64,000 nt of DNA, from positions 1-64,000 of the forward strand of contig JAKAVV010000014.1 of NCBI GenBank assembly GCA_021817145.1, read 5' to 3'. The position numbers and the translations under genes are program-made. The notes beneath the pieces are model-generated. The model ran no database searches. It saw nothing but the letters and a program-made list of their open reading frames with translations, and had not been told where the DNA came from. Source of the DNA: a bacterium. GTDB taxonomy: Bacteria; Vulcanimicrobiota; JABDET01. Positions 2,045 through 37,536 of the stretch are shown here, one piece after another. Positions within the stretch are counted from its first letter, which is position 1; every line of letters starts with the position of its first letter.

Positions 2045-2212
2045 TCAAACTCCCTTAGCCAGCTCTTCTTGTAATACGAAACTCTCTGGATGCTGTCTTT
2101 CCGATAGAAGTTTCAGCAAATTTTTAAAAGCTTCAAATGCAGGAATATTCTCCCTTATCATCTCACAATGATACTGCTTTGGGAATAAATGGGAGGGCAG
2201 GATGACCGACAT
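2045..2212 (-). CDS. possible 55-aa ORF or gene remnant
   Basis: A 55-residue frame starts MSVILPSHLFPKQYH and continues as a charged, amphipathic helix-like stretch (ENIPAFEAFKNLLKLL) to LAKGV. The composition looks protein-like and the C-terminal 38 residues could begin at an internal ATG. The proposed start ATG lies inside the palindromic repeat at 2196-2249, with GGAG only three bases before it. The frame may therefore be the tail of an older gene whose start was overwritten by the repeat. No family recognised; may be non-coding. Confidence 0.25.
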   Translation of the reverse strand: MSVILPSHLFPKQYHCEMIRENIPAFEAFKNLLKLLSERQHPESFVLQEELAKGV

Positions 2213-2249
2213 CTGCTCCAAACAAGAATTGGCATGGATGCCAATTCTT
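2196..2249. repeat. palindromic repeat, copy A
   Basis: This copy ends in a perfect 12-bp inverted repeat with a 2-nt spacer (AAGAATTGGCAT / ATGCCAATTCTT, 2224-2249), preceded by about 28 bases (GGCAGGATGACCGAC...) that recur near 37470. A run of 22 bases at 2217-2238 is identical to 11738-11759 inside a coding region. Compared with the copy at 37470 the arms differ but keep pairing (TTG/CAA against CTC/GAG), and the hairpin length (26 nt) and GGATG near the tip are conserved. That is the pattern expected of a structured, dispersed element. Confidence 0.7.
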
Positions 2250-11645: not shown

Positions 11646-12245
11646 ATGAGTGATAAAGGAGTTCATTCTTTATCGTGGAAAAACCTTTATTACGGATGTT
11701 ACGGATTGGATTGGAGGTCAGGAAGTCCGATCACCTTTCCAAACAAGAATTGGCATGGAGCCTTATTACGAGAAACATGGCGCGGAGGCGCTTTATATCA
11801 GATGAAAGAAAATATGACTTTTGCCGAAAAAGATTTAGCGGGGCTTTTAAGATCTCTGCAAACTCTCCCTTCCCCAATAAAAGAAGATTTTCAATCGGGC
11901 TCAGATCTGGTCATATTGATCACTAGTCCGACCTTTGGAAATGGGACAGAACATCTTGGGAAGATTTTAATGAAGTTTTTCTTGAAAAGTTTATCAGCAA
12001 CTCCATTAAAACCAAAGATGCTCATTCTTTTAAATGATGCTGTTTTAATGGCTTGTGAAAACACAGAATATTCGGAAATGATATCCAGTTTTACGATTCT
12101 GCAAGAGCAGGGAATTAAAATTTTAATTGAAGGAACAAGTGTGGATTATCATCAAGTTGAAGACAAAATAAAATGCGGACAGGTTGTCAGCATGCTGAGT
12201 ATATGCGGAGAAATTTTAAGCTCAGGAAGGGTATTAACCCTTTAA
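11646..12245 (+). CDS. YedF-like DsrE-domain protein (N-terminus altered)
   Basis: Residues about 80-199 resemble the C-terminal DsrE-like half of the selenium-metabolism protein YedF (SPTFGNGTEHLGKILMKFFL, then LNDAVLMACE and EGTSVDYHQVEDKI). The TusA-like N-terminal half of YedF is absent. The CGTC cysteines of the family are replaced by EGTS, so sulfur relay through them is not possible. The first ~52 codons include a decayed copy of the dispersed palindromic repeat (11720-11770), read as FPNKNWHGA. The functional start may be the ATG at 11802 or 11814 rather than 11646. It is 3 bases before the HtrA gene. Confidence 0.6.
   Translation: MSDKGVHSLSWKNLYYGCYGLDWRSGSPITFPNKNWHGALLRETWRGGALYQMKENMTFAEKDLAGLLRSLQTLPSPIKEDFQSGSDLVILITSPTFGNGTEHLGKILMKFFLKSLSATPLKPKMLILLNDAVLMACENTEYSEMISSFTILQEQGIKILIEGTSVDYHQVEDKIKCGQVVSMLSICGEILSSGRVLTL
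11719..11770. repeat. palindromic repeat, copy B (decayed, inside a coding frame)
   Basis: 22 bases at 11738-11759 are identical to 2217-2238 and the preceding ~20 bases also align (CAGGAAGTCCGAT against CAGGATGACCGAC). The 3' hairpin arm is shortened, so the stem no longer closes. The element is read in frame within the YedF-like ORF. Confidence 0.6.
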
Positions 12246-16446: not shown

Positions 16447-16538
16447 TTCCCCCTTTTTTGCTTTAATGGTAATTAGGTGTATCCGTAAATAGCGTATTCA
16501 GTGAACAGCCAGCTTTTCCCTCTAAGAAGTTTAAACTT

Positions 16539-25818: not shown

Positions 25819-28796
25819 AAATCCAATTCGATCCGAACCAACAATTTCAAATCGACGCGATGGCGGCCGTGACAGATTTATTCGACGGCCAACCCCAAGC
25901 AGCGCCTGAATACGCGGTCATCAATCTGGGTGACATGGGGGGGCTTTTTTCCGGCCAAGACCGGACTGAACTGGGTGTTGGCAATCGGCTGTTACTTTCT
26001 GAGGAGAAACTTCGTGAAAATACTCGCCTGGTACAGACTCGCAACGACACTGAGGTCACAGATCCAGCAATGCAGCTCGAAAGGTGGGTGCTCTTCGATT
26101 CTCACTTGAATGCCCCTCGTGCTTGTCCCCATTTCTCGATTGAAATGGAAACCGGGACAGGAAAGACTTACGTTTACCTCCGCACCATCTTTGAGCTATC
26201 CCACCGTTACGGGTTCCAGAAGTTCATCATCGTGGTTCCCAGTGTGGCGATCCGCGAAGGCGTGCTCAAAAACATCGAAATCACCTCGGAACACTTCCGT
26301 TCCCTTTACAATAACCTTCCTTTTGAACACTTCGTTTATGACGCCAAGAAGGTGAACCGCCTCCGCCAGTTTGCGGTGAGCAACACCCTACAAATCCTGA
26401 TCATCAACATTGATGCCTTCCGGAAAAATTTTACCGGAACGGAGGAAGAACGAAAAAGCAACGTGATTTACAAGGAAAGCGACAAGCTTTCCGGCCACCA
26501 GCCCATCGAGTTTGTGCAGGCAACCCGTCCCATCGTGATTATTGACGAGCCGCAAAGCGTGGACAGCACGGAAAAAGCGCAGGAAGCCATCAAAGCCCTG
26601 AACCCGCTTTGCACCCTGCGCTATTCCGCCACCCACAAGAACCCGTACAACCTGGTTTACCGTCTTGATCCTATTCGAGCTTTTGAGCTAAAGTTGGTCA
26701 AACAGATCGTGGTGGCAAGCGCACATGGAAATGACAGCGGAAATGATGCGTTTGTCCGGGTTGAGCAAATTGACAACAAAAGGGGGATTAAAGCAAAGCT
26801 TCGTATCCATGTTCAAACAGACAGCGGACCGAAGGAAAAGTCGTTTACGGTGAAAGGAGCAGGTACAGATCTTTTTTCTCTTTCCAATGAGCGAGCCTCA
26901 TACAAGGATGGCTTTGAAGTCGCCGAGATTAATGCGGAACCAGGAAACGAATACATCCGTTTCAGCAATGGTTGGACCCTGAGGATCGGGGAATCTATTG
27001 GTGGGATGCAAGGGGACATCTGGAGGGTGCAGATCAAGAACACAGTGAAAAAGCATCTCGAAAAAGAGCTGCAGCTTCGCGGAAGAGGAATCAAGGTGCT
27101 TACCCTCTTCTTCATTGACCGGGTCGCCAATTACCGCGATTACGATGAGTCAGGTCAACCCGTCAAGGGAAAGTTTGCCCAGAATTTCGAGGCTGCGCTT
27201 GAAGAACTGGCAAAAAATCCCCGTTATAAAGAGCTGGAATGGCTTAAACTGCCGGTTGAAAGGCTCCACAACGGATATTTTGCTAGAGATAAAAAAGGAA
27301 TCTTCAAGGACACCCGGGGAGATACCCAGGCTGATGACGATGCCTATAACCTCATTATGAAGGAAAAGGAACGCCTCCTTTCTCTGGATGAGCCGCTGCG
27401 CTTTATCTTCAGCCATTCGGCTTTACGGGAAGGATGGGACAACCCCAATGTTTTTCAGATTTGCACATTAAACGAGACAAGAAGTGCAATCAAAAAGCGT
27501 CAGGAAATCGGGCGGGGCCTCCGCCTTCCGGTGGATCAGAATGGTTTCCGGGTCTTTGACGAATCCGTGAACCAGTTGTATCTCATGGCAAACGAGAGCT
27601 ATGAGGATTTTGCCAAAGCCTTGCAAACCGAGTACGAGGAGGAATGCGGGGTAACCTTTGGCAAGGTGCCGATCACCGCCCTTGCCAGGCTGGTTTGGAT
27701 CGTAAATGGAAAAGAAGAACCCATTGGCGCAGAGGCTGCTGAGGCAATCCACCATGCCCTGGTCGAGCAGAATATGCTTGACACTGATGGCCGGATTCAG
27801 CCCTCCTTCGATCCAAAGCGGAAAGATTTCAAACTGGATCTGCCTGCCGAGCTTCAAAACTTAATCCCATCTGTTACAGATCTCCTGGCTTCTTATCAGA
27901 TGGAACGCCATATCCGGAAGGAAAAGGATATCCGGGTGAGCCGCCTGATCAAGGATCTCAACCTTGACCCGGAATTCAAAGCACTGTGGGATCGCATCAA
28001 GCCAAAAACAACCTACCGCGTAGAGTTTTCAACCGAGGAACTGGTAAGAAGCGCCCTTGCTGAGCTGAAACGAATGGAGAAGATCGAACCGCTTAAGATT
28101 TCCTTGAGGACAGGCGCGGTTACTGTAACCAAAGCTGGCATCGAGACAAGGGCGGTCAGCATGGCAGAAGAAAGAGGAAGCTATGACAGCCACCCGATAC
28201 CAGACCTGTTAGCCTACCTGCAGGACCAAACAGAGCTTACCCGTTCCACCCTGGTTAACATCCTAAAAAAATCAGAAAGGCTGGATGAATTCTTTAATGA
28301 TCCGCAGCGTTTTCTGGATCGGGTTGCCGGAATTATTAACAATGCCCTCAACCGGATGATTGTGGATGGGATTAAGTATGAGCGTATTATCGGGGCGGGA
28401 ACAGATGCCGAATGGGAAATGATGCGGTTCAAAAACGAAGAGCTGATTAACTATCTCAACGCCCTGCCGGTAAAAAAATCGGTTTACGATTACGTGGTTT
28501 ACGATTCTGAGGTGGAACGGGAATTTGCTGAAAAGCTGGATCAAAGGGATGACATCAAGCTCTTTGTTAAACTGCCAAACTGGTTCAAGATCGAAACACC
28601 GGTTGGGGAGTATAATCCTGATTGGGCTATTGTTAAGCATAACGACGAAACCGTGTACATGGTTAGGGAAACTAAAGGGACGAAAGATTTCATGCAACTG
28701 CGGAATTCGGAAAGGGATAAGGTATTTTGCGGCCAGCGTCACTTCGAAGCCCTGAACGTGTCATTTAAGGTGGTAACCTCTGCGGATGACGTGTAA
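25815..28796 (+). CDS. res: Type III restriction enzyme subunit Res
   Basis: This 993-aa protein opens with the family's FDPNQQFQIDAM, has Walker A TGTGKTYV (113-120) and a DEPQ box (VIIDEPQSV, about 241-249). Superfamily 2 motifs near residues 570 (EIGRGLRLP) follow. The C-terminus carries a PD-(D/E)xK nuclease: YNPDWAIV then RETKGT (about 933-955). Res uses ATP for long-range sliding and cuts when two inverted sites are bound by Mod. All motifs are intact. It is separated from mod by the PLD nuclease, an unusual arrangement. Confidence 0.92.
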   Translation: MKIQFDPNQQFQIDAMAAVTDLFDGQPQAAPEYAVINLGDMGGLFSGQDRTELGVGNRLLLSEEKLRENTRLVQTRNDTEVTDPAMQLERWVLFDSHLNAPRACPHFSIEMETGTGKTYVYLRTIFELSHRYGFQKFIIVVPSVAIREGVLKNIEITSEHFRSLYNNLPFEHFVYDAKKVNRLRQFAVSNTLQILIINIDAFRKNFTGTEEERKSNVIYKESDKLSGHQPIEFVQATRPIVIIDEPQSVDSTEKAQEAIKALNPLCTLRYSATHKNPYNLVYRLDPIRAFELKLVKQIVVASAHGNDSGNDAFVRVEQIDNKRGIKAKLRIHVQTDSGPKEKSFTVKGAGTDLFSLSNERASYKDGFEVAEINAEPGNEYIRFSNGWTLRIGESIGGMQGDIWRVQIKNTVKKHLEKELQLRGRGIKVLTLFFIDRVANYRDYDESGQPVKGKFAQNFEAALEELAKNPRYKELEWLKLPVERLHNGYFARDKKGIFKDTRGDTQADDDAYNLIMKEKERLLSLDEPLRFIFSHSALREGWDNPNVFQICTLNETRSAIKKRQEIGRGLRLPVDQNGFRVFDESVNQLYLMANESYEDFAKALQTEYEEECGVTFGKVPITALARLVWIVNGKEEPIGAEAAEAIHHALVEQNMLDTDGRIQPSFDPKRKDFKLDLPAELQNLIPSVTDLLASYQMERHIRKEKDIRVSRLIKDLNLDPEFKALWDRIKPKTTYRVEFSTEELVRSALAELKRMEKIEPLKISLRTGAVTVTKAGIETRAVSMAEERGSYDSHPIPDLLAYLQDQTELTRSTLVNILKKSERLDEFFNDPQRFLDRVAGIINNALNRMIVDGIKYERIIGAGTDAEWEMMRFKNEELINYLNALPVKKSVYDYVVYDSEVEREFAEKLDQRDDIKLFVKLPNWFKIETPVGEYNPDWAIVKHNDETVYMVRETKGTKDFMQLRNSERDKVFCGQRHFEALNVSFKVVTSADDV

Positions 28797-28830
28797 CTTC
28801 TTACTAAAAAAATTTTGCTTAATTTAGTCT

Positions 28831-28882
28831 GTTATTCCCAAGCTGTAATTCCCAAGATGTAATTCCCAAGAAGGAAATTCCG
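28831..28882. repeat. three-and-a-half 14-bp tandem repeats
   Basis: Units GTTATTCCCAAGCT, GTAATTCCCAAGAT and GTAATTCCCAAGAA are followed by a partial GGAAATTCCGC. They lie in the gap between res and ftsK, that is, at the right edge of the GC-rich island. Similar 14-base units occur at 16539-16566 on the left edge. Confidence 0.65.
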
Positions 28883-28883
28883 C

Positions 28884-31112
28884 ATGAACGCTGAATTAGA
28901 AAAACTTGGGAGCAGTGGGGTGAAAAAAGGGACCAGATATAGATTTAAAGTTAAAAAAAATAAACCAGAAATCAGCAGGCTGACAGAGATAGTTTCTGTT
29001 CTGCTCTGCGGTTTTTCTATCTATTTAACCCTTGTGTTTTTTACCCCTTGGAGCGGAGTCTTCGGTGAACACATAAAATTGGTTTTGGTTCAGTGGTTTG
29101 GATCAACCTCCTATATTATAGAACTAATCCCTTTGATGGTGGCTGTATTTTTAATGAGCCCTGATTATAAGCCTTTCTGGCATTATCTGGTTTATTTGAC
29201 TGTTTGGTTTTTGAGTTTGTCGTTTCTCTTTGATTTGATCAATAGGGGAGGGAATTCCGCTTTTCTCGTGTGGCCCTTTTTAAAGTTTTTAGGAGAAGGG
29301 GGAACTCTTGTTTTTGCCGCAACCCTTCTTCTTATTACTATGCTCTTAATTACTAAAATTTCCTTGAAGAGTATTGGGTCTGAATTTCAAAGTACTGCTG
29401 AATTTTTGGCAAAATCTTTCAAAAGAGTTTTATCTTTTTTCCGATCCATCCTGAAATCAGAGAAGGGGAGCAAACGGATTTCTGCAAAAAAATTGAGTTC
29501 TGTCCAAGCTTCCTCATCGCAAATTCTAGAGAAAACAGATGACGAGGATGAGGATGAGGATGAATCAGATAATGTTACTTCGGACAATGGCAGTTTAGAG
29601 AGCGGGCGCTCAGAAGAGCTGCTGTTAACACAGCAGACACTTCCTTCTTTTCAGCCTGAGTCATCTGATCCTGAAATTCTTCTTGCTGATTCTGCTGGAG
29701 AGACTGAAAATTTACGAGGGTACCGTCTTCCTGATTTAAGCCTGCTGGAAGAAGCTGAGCCAAAACGAGACAGTGGTCCTCGAATCGAGCCTGCTGATTA
29801 CAGCGCTCTTCTTGAAGAGACTCTTTTAAGTTTTGGAATTGAAGCCAGCGTGATTCATGTTGAAAGAGGTCCAAGTGTTACGCGATATGAACTGCAGCCA
29901 GCAAAAGGGGTAAAGGTCAGTAAAATCGTCTCATTAGCGGATGATTTAGCCCTTGCTCTGGCTGCCATGAGTCTTCGAATAGAAGCCCCGATTCCTGGAA
30001 AAAGCGCGATCGGGATCGAAATTCCGAATAGTTCAGTGGCAATTGTTTATTTTAAAGACATGGCAGCCACAACCTTATTTAAGGAATCCCCTTTAAAAAC
30101 AATTCTTGCCCTTGGCAGAGATATTGCAGGGCAGCCTATTTTTACCGAATTAAAAAGAATGCCTCATCTTTTAATTGCTGGAGCTACAGGATCTGGCAAA
30201 ACAGTTTGCATTAATACTTTAATTGCCAGTATCTTATTAAAAGCCACCCCTCTTGAGGTTCAGTTTGTTATGATTGATCCAAAACGGGTTGAATTAACCA
30301 TCTATGACGGGATCCCGCATTTAATCCAGGAAGTGGTAACAGATCCCAAACAAGCGGCAAAAGTTCTGTTAGACGTTCTGGCTATTATGGATGAGAGATA
30401 CAATATTTTTAAAGAAGCGCGCGTTCGAAATTTGGAAGAATACAATAAAGCAAATCCAGAAAATTCACTCCCTTATATTGTGGTTTTAATTGATGAATTA
30501 GCGGATCTCATGATGCTGGCAGCGGCTCTGGTAGAAGCTAGTATTGCTCGATTAACAGCTTTAGCTCGAGCTGCTGGAATTCATCTGATTGTCGCGACAC
30601 AGAGGCCAAGTGTAGATGTCATTACTGGAATTATTAAAGCGAATATTCCCTCTCGTATTGCTTTTGCGGTATCCAGTATTGCGGATTCCAGAACAATCCT
30701 GGACACTGGAGGTTCTGAAAAGCTTTTAGGAAGAGGGGATATGTTGTTTGCTCCCATTGATGCCATGAAACCAGTGCGGCTGCAGGGGGCTCTTGTGAGT
30801 TTAAAAGAAATTGAAGCTCTGGTTTCTTTTTGGAGCCAGCAGCCATCCCCTGAAAATTTAGTGCAGCTGCCTCAAAATTCAAATCAAAATCTTGAACCAG
30901 AAGCTTCTGATGATGAAGATGAGCTGTATCAAGAAGCAAAAGAGATTATTTTAAGAACAGGACAGGCAAGTGTTTCAACTCTTCAAAGAAAATTGAAGAT
31001 TGGATATGCCAGAGCTGGCAGATTAATGGATATCATGGAGAAAAATGGGGTGGTTGGACCTGCTGATGGATCTAAACCTCGCAAAATTTTAGTCACCAAC
31101 CCTTATCATTAA
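28884..31112 (+). CDS. ftsK: FtsK/SpoIIIE DNA translocase
   Basis: The 742-aa protein has about four N-terminal membrane segments (residues 34-160), an acidic linker (DDEDEDEDESD, about 215-230), and the RecA-like motor with Walker A GATGSGKT and Walker B VVLIDELADL. The C-terminal ~65 residues form the winged-helix gamma domain (EIILRTGQASVSTLQRKLKIGYARA). It pumps chromosome DNA at the division septum and reads KOPS-like sites. It marks the return to AT-rich core sequence after the island. Confidence 0.92.
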   Translation: MNAELEKLGSSGVKKGTRYRFKVKKNKPEISRLTEIVSVLLCGFSIYLTLVFFTPWSGVFGEHIKLVLVQWFGSTSYIIELIPLMVAVFLMSPDYKPFWHYLVYLTVWFLSLSFLFDLINRGGNSAFLVWPFLKFLGEGGTLVFAATLLLITMLLITKISLKSIGSEFQSTAEFLAKSFKRVLSFFRSILKSEKGSKRISAKKLSSVQASSSQILEKTDDEDEDEDESDNVTSDNGSLESGRSEELLLTQQTLPSFQPESSDPEILLADSAGETENLRGYRLPDLSLLEEAEPKRDSGPRIEPADYSALLEETLLSFGIEASVIHVERGPSVTRYELQPAKGVKVSKIVSLADDLALALAAMSLRIEAPIPGKSAIGIEIPNSSVAIVYFKDMAATTLFKESPLKTILALGRDIAGQPIFTELKRMPHLLIAGATGSGKTVCINTLIASILLKATPLEVQFVMIDPKRVELTIYDGIPHLIQEVVTDPKQAAKVLLDVLAIMDERYNIFKEARVRNLEEYNKANPENSLPYIVVLIDELADLMMLAAALVEASIARLTALARAAGIHLIVATQRPSVDVITGIIKANIPSRIAFAVSSIADSRTILDTGGSEKLLGRGDMLFAPIDAMKPVRLQGALVSLKEIEALVSFWSQQPSPENLVQLPQNSNQNLEPEASDDEDELYQEAKEIILRTGQASVSTLQRKLKIGYARAGRLMDIMEKNGVVGPADGSKPRKILVTNPYH

Positions 31113-37381: not shown

Positions 37382-37469
37382 ATCTTTATGATACAACACA
37401 AATAGAAGAGCTGCAAGATCCTGTGGCAGAGGTATGGTTAAAAAAGTGTTAATTTCGGGTTAGATTTGA

Positions 37470-37527
37470 GGCAGGGATGCCGAACTCCTCTCGAAACAAG
37501 AACTCACAGGATGTAGAGTTCTTCTTT
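37470..37527. repeat. palindromic repeat, copy C
   Basis: The hairpin AAGAACTC / GAGTTCTT (37499-37524, 26 nt with GGATG near the tip) is preceded by GGCAGGGATGCCGAAC, aligning over more than 50 bases with copy A at 2196-2249. Stem bases differ from copy A, yet the 8 outer pairs are kept. It lies between rluD and the hydrolase gene, in 155 bases with no gene. Confidence 0.65.
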
Positions 37528-37536
37528 CGGGTTATC

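Follow-up and report, generated by a model that had tools for sequence, protein, structure and literature searches.

A lineage-specific, dispersed repeat with conserved hairpins and GGA loops resembling CsrA sites in a genome of the Vulcanimicrobiota

Small dispersed palindromes are common; what they do is a general question, and so is how new regulatory RNA sites originate. Rickettsial palindromic elements, for example, are in-gene repeats. Most REPs carry a GTAG or CGTC tag (PMC3733652). Hairpins of a different kind characterize the RNAs bound by CsrA and its relatives: CsrB has CAGGA(U/A/C)G motifs that recur in its hairpin loops, in vitro selection (SELEX) yielded RUACARGGAUGU with GGA in loops, most of the selected ligands having four or fewer contiguous pairs, and RsmE binds an ANGGAN hexaloop (PMC7652899). 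A study of repeats in the Beggiatoaceae weighed CsrA for its own TAACTGA repeat and then excluded it (PMC4679880); in the literature we found nothing direct on CsrA-type repeats as mobile elements.

The window analyzed here, a stretch of 64,000 nt, is contig 30 of a draft genome of 2.66 Mb in 42 contigs. A sequence-only reading of it had described a dispersed palindromic element in three copies (2196-2249, 11719-11770 and 37470-37527; here A, B and C), with 22 bases identical between A and B (TCCAAACAAGAATTGGCATGGA) and 26-nt hairpins in A (AAGAATTG-GCATGGATGC-CAATTCTT) and C (AAGAACTC-ACAGGATGTA-GAGTTCTT) whose arms change in pairs, from TTG/CAA to CTC/GAG. The copies, the identity, the hairpins and the paired changes are all present as described, and the element is real and structured, but those intervals are too short and cover only part of a unit: one hairpin had been recognized, while a second, shorter hairpin, a covarying long-range stem, constant GGA loops and a preference for TTA and stop codons had been missed. 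Aligned, the three copies share a start (GAGG...CAGG) and a core (CCAAACAAGAA), and their full extents are approximately 2175-2256, 11696-11777 and 37450-37530.

The repeat unit is about 73 nt long and consists of three helices, namely two hairpins and a long-range stem (P1), in the order TTATT-P1-(hairpin I)-P1'-(hairpin II)-TTA. Read 5' to 3', it runs TTA-TTTGGG-TTTGGATT-AGCGGTCAGGATGACCGCT-CACCTCT-CCAAA-C-AAGAAATGGCACGGATGTCATTTCTT-A; in P1, TTTGG pairs with CCAAA and encloses hairpin I, with hairpin II immediately 3'. P1 occurs in the source genome as TTTGG/CCAAA, TTACG/CGTAA, TTCGG/CCGAA and TTTCG/CGAAA, and in a sister genus as CTCTG/CAGAG, GTCGG/CCGAC and others. Single units fold into this structure (z-scores, -1.9 to -4.2). 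Just 5' of the P1 3' strand (for example at loci L069 and L071) the pyrimidine strand is constant (CACCTCTC / TTCCTCTC) and resembles the 16S anti-Shine-Dalgarno sequence. Pairing of the GGA loops with this CCUCU strand was considered and dropped on inspection, because it shows no covariation with P1 type; likewise, an integron attC-like site, suggested by the AAC/GTT triplets flanking P1, was rejected on inspection, neither the arm order nor the 5' triplet being right for one.

Within the window, copy A (2175-2256, + strand) is a full unit with P1, a hairpin I carrying CAGGATG and a hairpin II carrying CATGGATG; the latter hairpin (2220-2249, +) is an 11-bp stem, AAGAATTGGCA-TGGA-TGCCAATTCTT, with the P1 3' strand CCAAA directly 5' of it. 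Copy B (11696-11777, +) is broken: hairpin I is intact (AGGAAG) and P1 is a mosaic, TTACG with CCAAA, but hairpin II is truncated (GGCATGGAGCC, then lost) and has no 3' arm. Copy C (37450-37530, +), with P1 TTTCG/CGAAA, hairpin I GGCAGGGATGCC and hairpin II AAGAACTCACAGGATGTAGAGTTCTT, lies antisense between two - strand genes. A fourth copy, partial and comprising hairpin II (GACACGGATGTC), was found at 2450-2513 on the - strand (26.4 bits with model R1, described below; 27.7 bits and E 2e-5 with the held-out model R3, which matches 2450-2491, also on the - strand); a NUDIX gene (2455-2919, -) ends inside it, and both the stop codon and the final residues of that gene, KTRIDTDVIS, come from the copy. 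Elsewhere in the window, three tandem 14-nt repeats (approximately TGTAATTCCCAAGA) at 28830-28881 directly precede an ORF at 28884, and a single similar stretch occurs at 16538.

A blastn search of the whole genome seeded with copy A yielded 28 matches, among them exact 73-nt head-to-tail arrays. Model R1, built from the three-helix structure on 21 aligned units, gave 51 matches at E <= 0.01 in the source genome, which after removal of opposite-strand echoes correspond to 48 units at 31 places, some in head-to-tail arrays and most in intergenic spacers; the genome scan with a covariance model that the sequence-only reading had proposed thus revealed a large, strongly covarying family rather than few or no further copies. 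Model R3, built from 17 units of the source genome that all lie outside the window, recovers A, C and B at rough E-values of 3.3e-18, 1.6e-14 and 1.4e-8, respectively. With model R2, whose build includes the relatives' copies, five copies were found in a congener (G001) and eight in a genome of the sister genus (G002), and no copy was found in 146 other genomes of the phylum. The unit has no match in Rfam at gathering score, and a loose regular-expression search returned mostly noise. A weak match in an Omnitrophota contig proved to be a terminator-like hairpin and not a copy. Two weak matches in the congener, L099 and L100, were first set aside as coding noise and later counted, being probable copies: rescoring with R2 and R3 recovered L099, where the encoded protein has a lineage-specific insertion adjoining a TTATTCG site, and rescoring with R2 recovered L100 (the same as L068; G001 contig 12), where the C-terminus of a RidA-like gene is extended.

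Conservation of the structure is well supported, as all three helices covary strongly. Among the 21 units, 86% of the cells pair and 16 of the 26 pairs have changed on both sides, which no shuffle matched. The later alignments lean towards the model, having been fitted to it: across 37 distinct units, drawn from three genomes, compensation is seen in 21 of the 26 pairs, against 12.7 in shuffles (0 of 500 reach 21), and the covariation score is 0.392 against 0.152 (slid controls, 0.091 at most), while the relatives' copies score 0.556 against 0.174. Being long-range, P1 is the case with the least bias, and in the relatives' copies 91.5% of it is paired and five of its six pairs are compensated. 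The fold includes G-U pairs. Repair of quasi-palindromes by template switching yields perfect arms without function, and several copies are young and near-identical, such that one could suppose no selection on structure at all and loops that are merely inherited. Nevertheless, the stems are completely different between the genera, yet GGA is found in 16 of 16 sister-genus loops; the long-range P1, which encloses hairpin I, covaries as well; and the loop columns vary less than the adjoining stem columns (identity between copies is 77-100% for the GGA cores, and ranges from about 26% to 75% or higher for the stem columns). We therefore consider this account improbable.

The mobility of the repeat is also well supported. 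In the source genome, an element of about 71 nt lies antisense directly behind the rpsM stop codon, in the rpsM-rpsK spacer inside the ribosomal protein operon (L070:9208-9289, contig 17); in the congener the same spacer is empty and reads GGCGCTAAATAAT-AAAGGGGG. Similarly, an M23-peptidase-like gene has its TAA stop at the equivalent place in both genomes, and a two-unit array follows it only in the source genome. TTA(TT) is found at both ends of the element, and TTA(TT) is also the simplest reading of the target; the empty site itself contains TTA repeats, so a 3-bp target duplication is not readable there. By tallies based on the gene calls of a simple ORF picker, the stop codon of the neighboring gene is exactly the terminal codon of the element on the other strand at seven source-genome loci, with TTA in most, and in co-directional spacers 13 copies are antisense and 4-5 sense. 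Such a target accounts for insertion at TAA stop codons, which leaves the element antisense to the gene concerned, and likewise for the surplus of antisense copies between co-directional genes. Units in arrays are directly, not inversely, repeated. TTATT is re-created at the end of the element, where a further copy could then insert, and this is probably how the head-to-tail arrangement arises. A few copies have turned into coding sequence. One (L080:9968-10048; contig 1, about 26667-26747) lies in frame inside a predicted gene of 358 amino acids and is translated as YLGLDLRQGCRTPLQTRIGMEVNPY, and the C-terminal extension of the RidA-like gene at L100 seems to be read from a decayed antisense copy.

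The enzyme that moves the repeat was sought in the three carrier genomes (G000, G001 and G002), two of them drafts of 97-98% completeness and the third of only 67%. Profile PF01797 (RAYT/IS200 TnpA, Y1) had no match in any of the three, whereas 12 of 28 relatives were positive in the same search, and the GTAG and CGTC tags are not a feature of the units, occurring in 4 and 3 of 57, respectively. A RAYT associated with the repeat, for which the sequence-only reading had suggested looking, is accordingly not borne out. Dispersed intergenic palindromes, arrays and a preference for gene 3' ends would suit a REP/REPIN family whose RAYT was missed in a draft genome; given the absence of PF01797 from carriers of which two are nearly complete, the scarcity of both tags and the direct rather than inverse repetition of units, this is very unlikely. 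Still less credible is the suggestion of an RNA-mobilized unit spread by reverse transcription, with which the conserved RNA-like fold and its G-U pairs would agree: the three carriers have no match to the reverse transcriptase profile PF00078, and neither poly-A nor another retro signature was seen. We read the repeat as a non-autonomous mobile element whose mobilizing enzyme is no recognizable Y1 transposase or reverse transcriptase.

The tips of both hairpins stay A(N)GGA, the motif of CsrB repeats and CsrA sites, while the stems diverge. Hairpin I mostly has the loop CAGGAUG and hairpin II the loop CANGGAUG, and variation falls at the N positions. Among 45 distinct units of the source genome, A(N)GGA(N) is present in hairpin I of 39 and in hairpin II of 38, the failures being mostly truncated or decayed ends; GGA is found in 57 of the 62 loops of model-aligned copies, the share being about 85-92% depending on the set, and in the sister genus all 16 loops have it, on unrelated stems. 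The source genome carries two csrA genes, both of standard sequence, one adjoining flagellin genes and the other alignable with solved CsrA structures along almost its entire length, and the sister genus has one. By contrast, the congener lacks both csrA and fliW, and GGA survives in just 3 of its 10 loops (2 of 6 without L099 and L100; Fisher's test against the 57/62 model-aligned loops, p from about 2e-3 to 5e-5; against all source-genome loops, about 85%, p about 7e-4). This small natural experiment, which comprises five copies whose stems are decaying too, is suggestive of a link between loop decay and csrA loss. Three loci have neighborhoods that bear mention: one copy has a hairpin II loop, AGGAGG, about 11 nt 5' of the ATG of a gene resembling an HxlR-type regulator, and at this distance the CsrA motif doubles as a Shine-Dalgarno sequence; another (L072:10009-10090; contig 20, 55208-55289) lies antisense between flgL and fliW, the latter being the gene of a CsrA antagonist; and a two-unit array (L020:1541-1974, -) follows the gene of the large bacterial SRP RNA at a distance of about 15 nt and shares its strand. 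In the source genome csrA does not adjoin fliW, as it does in another genome of the phylum (G004).

Based on loop identity, gene content and the comparison with the congener, we judge the chances that CsrA binds the repeat to be evenly balanced, and we propose, with conviction and doubt in equal parts, that the best explanation is a non-autonomous mobile repeat carrying CsrA-type RNA sites. A + strand transcript would present two A(N)GGA(N) hairpin loops per unit, in the known form of a CsrA site, and copies could then serve as local or collective CsrA docking sites: a copy in an mRNA leader may place the gene under CsrA control, and arrays may titrate CsrA as CsrB-type RNAs do. Several observations weigh against CsrA binding. 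Most copies are antisense where both flanking genes are co-directional, and for this reason host mRNAs would carry UCC rather than GGA loops; hairpin II is often a very stable stem of 10-11 bp, against the mostly short stems of SELEX ligands; the decay in the congener concerns five copies; and hairpins with GGA loops show no general enrichment outside the family in the source genome. Loop constancy could also reflect recognition by the mobilizing enzyme. This is the main rival to CsrA binding, namely a purely selfish hairpin element like the miniatures of IS200/IS605, with GGA loops and stem shapes read as single-stranded DNA by that enzyme and CsrA uninvolved. A single-strand mechanism would suit the two subterminal hairpins, the lack of terminal inverted repeats, the short target of TTA type and the head-to-tail insertion; a lineage-limited burst with a few decayed copies in the congener would be expected of such an element, and a TTA target at TAA stops accounts for the antisense bias. 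No Y1 transposase was found in the three carriers, however, against 12 of 28 relatives in the same search, and the convergence of both hairpins on the CsrA motif, with variation where CsrA sites tolerate it, is left unaccounted for; we regard a purely selfish element as a serious possibility, if one somewhat short of an even chance.

Under CsrA binding, we tentatively hypothesize, with rather more doubt than confidence, that a mobile element has turned a CsrA recognition hairpin into a transposable module, with about 100 CsrA sites scattered at stop codons and in leaders, and that the loops decay after the host loses csrA. If so, transposition would be a route to a global post-transcriptional regulon or to a distributed CsrA sponge, and could rewire a global RNA-binding regulator. 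What gives the case its interest is a repeat whose CsrA recognition loop persists although the stems around it are rewritten, together with a csrA-less congener in which the loops have decayed; even without CsrA, this is a clear mobile hairpin family without a recognizable transposase.

Compared with known systems, the repeat is like the CsrA-sequestering RNAs CsrB/CsrC and RsmX/Y/Z in having repeated hairpins with CAGGAUG or ANGGA loops on variable stems, but each of those is one regulated sRNA gene, whereas the repeat is a mobile unit, about 73 nt long, that is dispersed over dozens of sites. With REP/BIME/REPIN elements and their RAYT (TnpA-REP) it shares small intergenic palindromes, arrays, a frequent position 3' of stop codons and a conserved structure; it differs in lacking a RAYT and the GTAG/CGTC tag, and in having two distinct hairpins per unit, direct repeats, a long-range stem and a TTA target. 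Rickettsial palindromic elements resemble those copies that form part of genes, in frame within them or at their ends, although their sequence is unrelated and the repeat is mostly intergenic. Miniature elements derived from IS200/IS605 likewise have two subterminal hairpins, no inverted ends, a short T-rich target and head-to-tail insertion; what sets the repeat apart from them is that no carrier genome has a TnpA-Y1 match and that its hairpin loops bear the CsrA motif.
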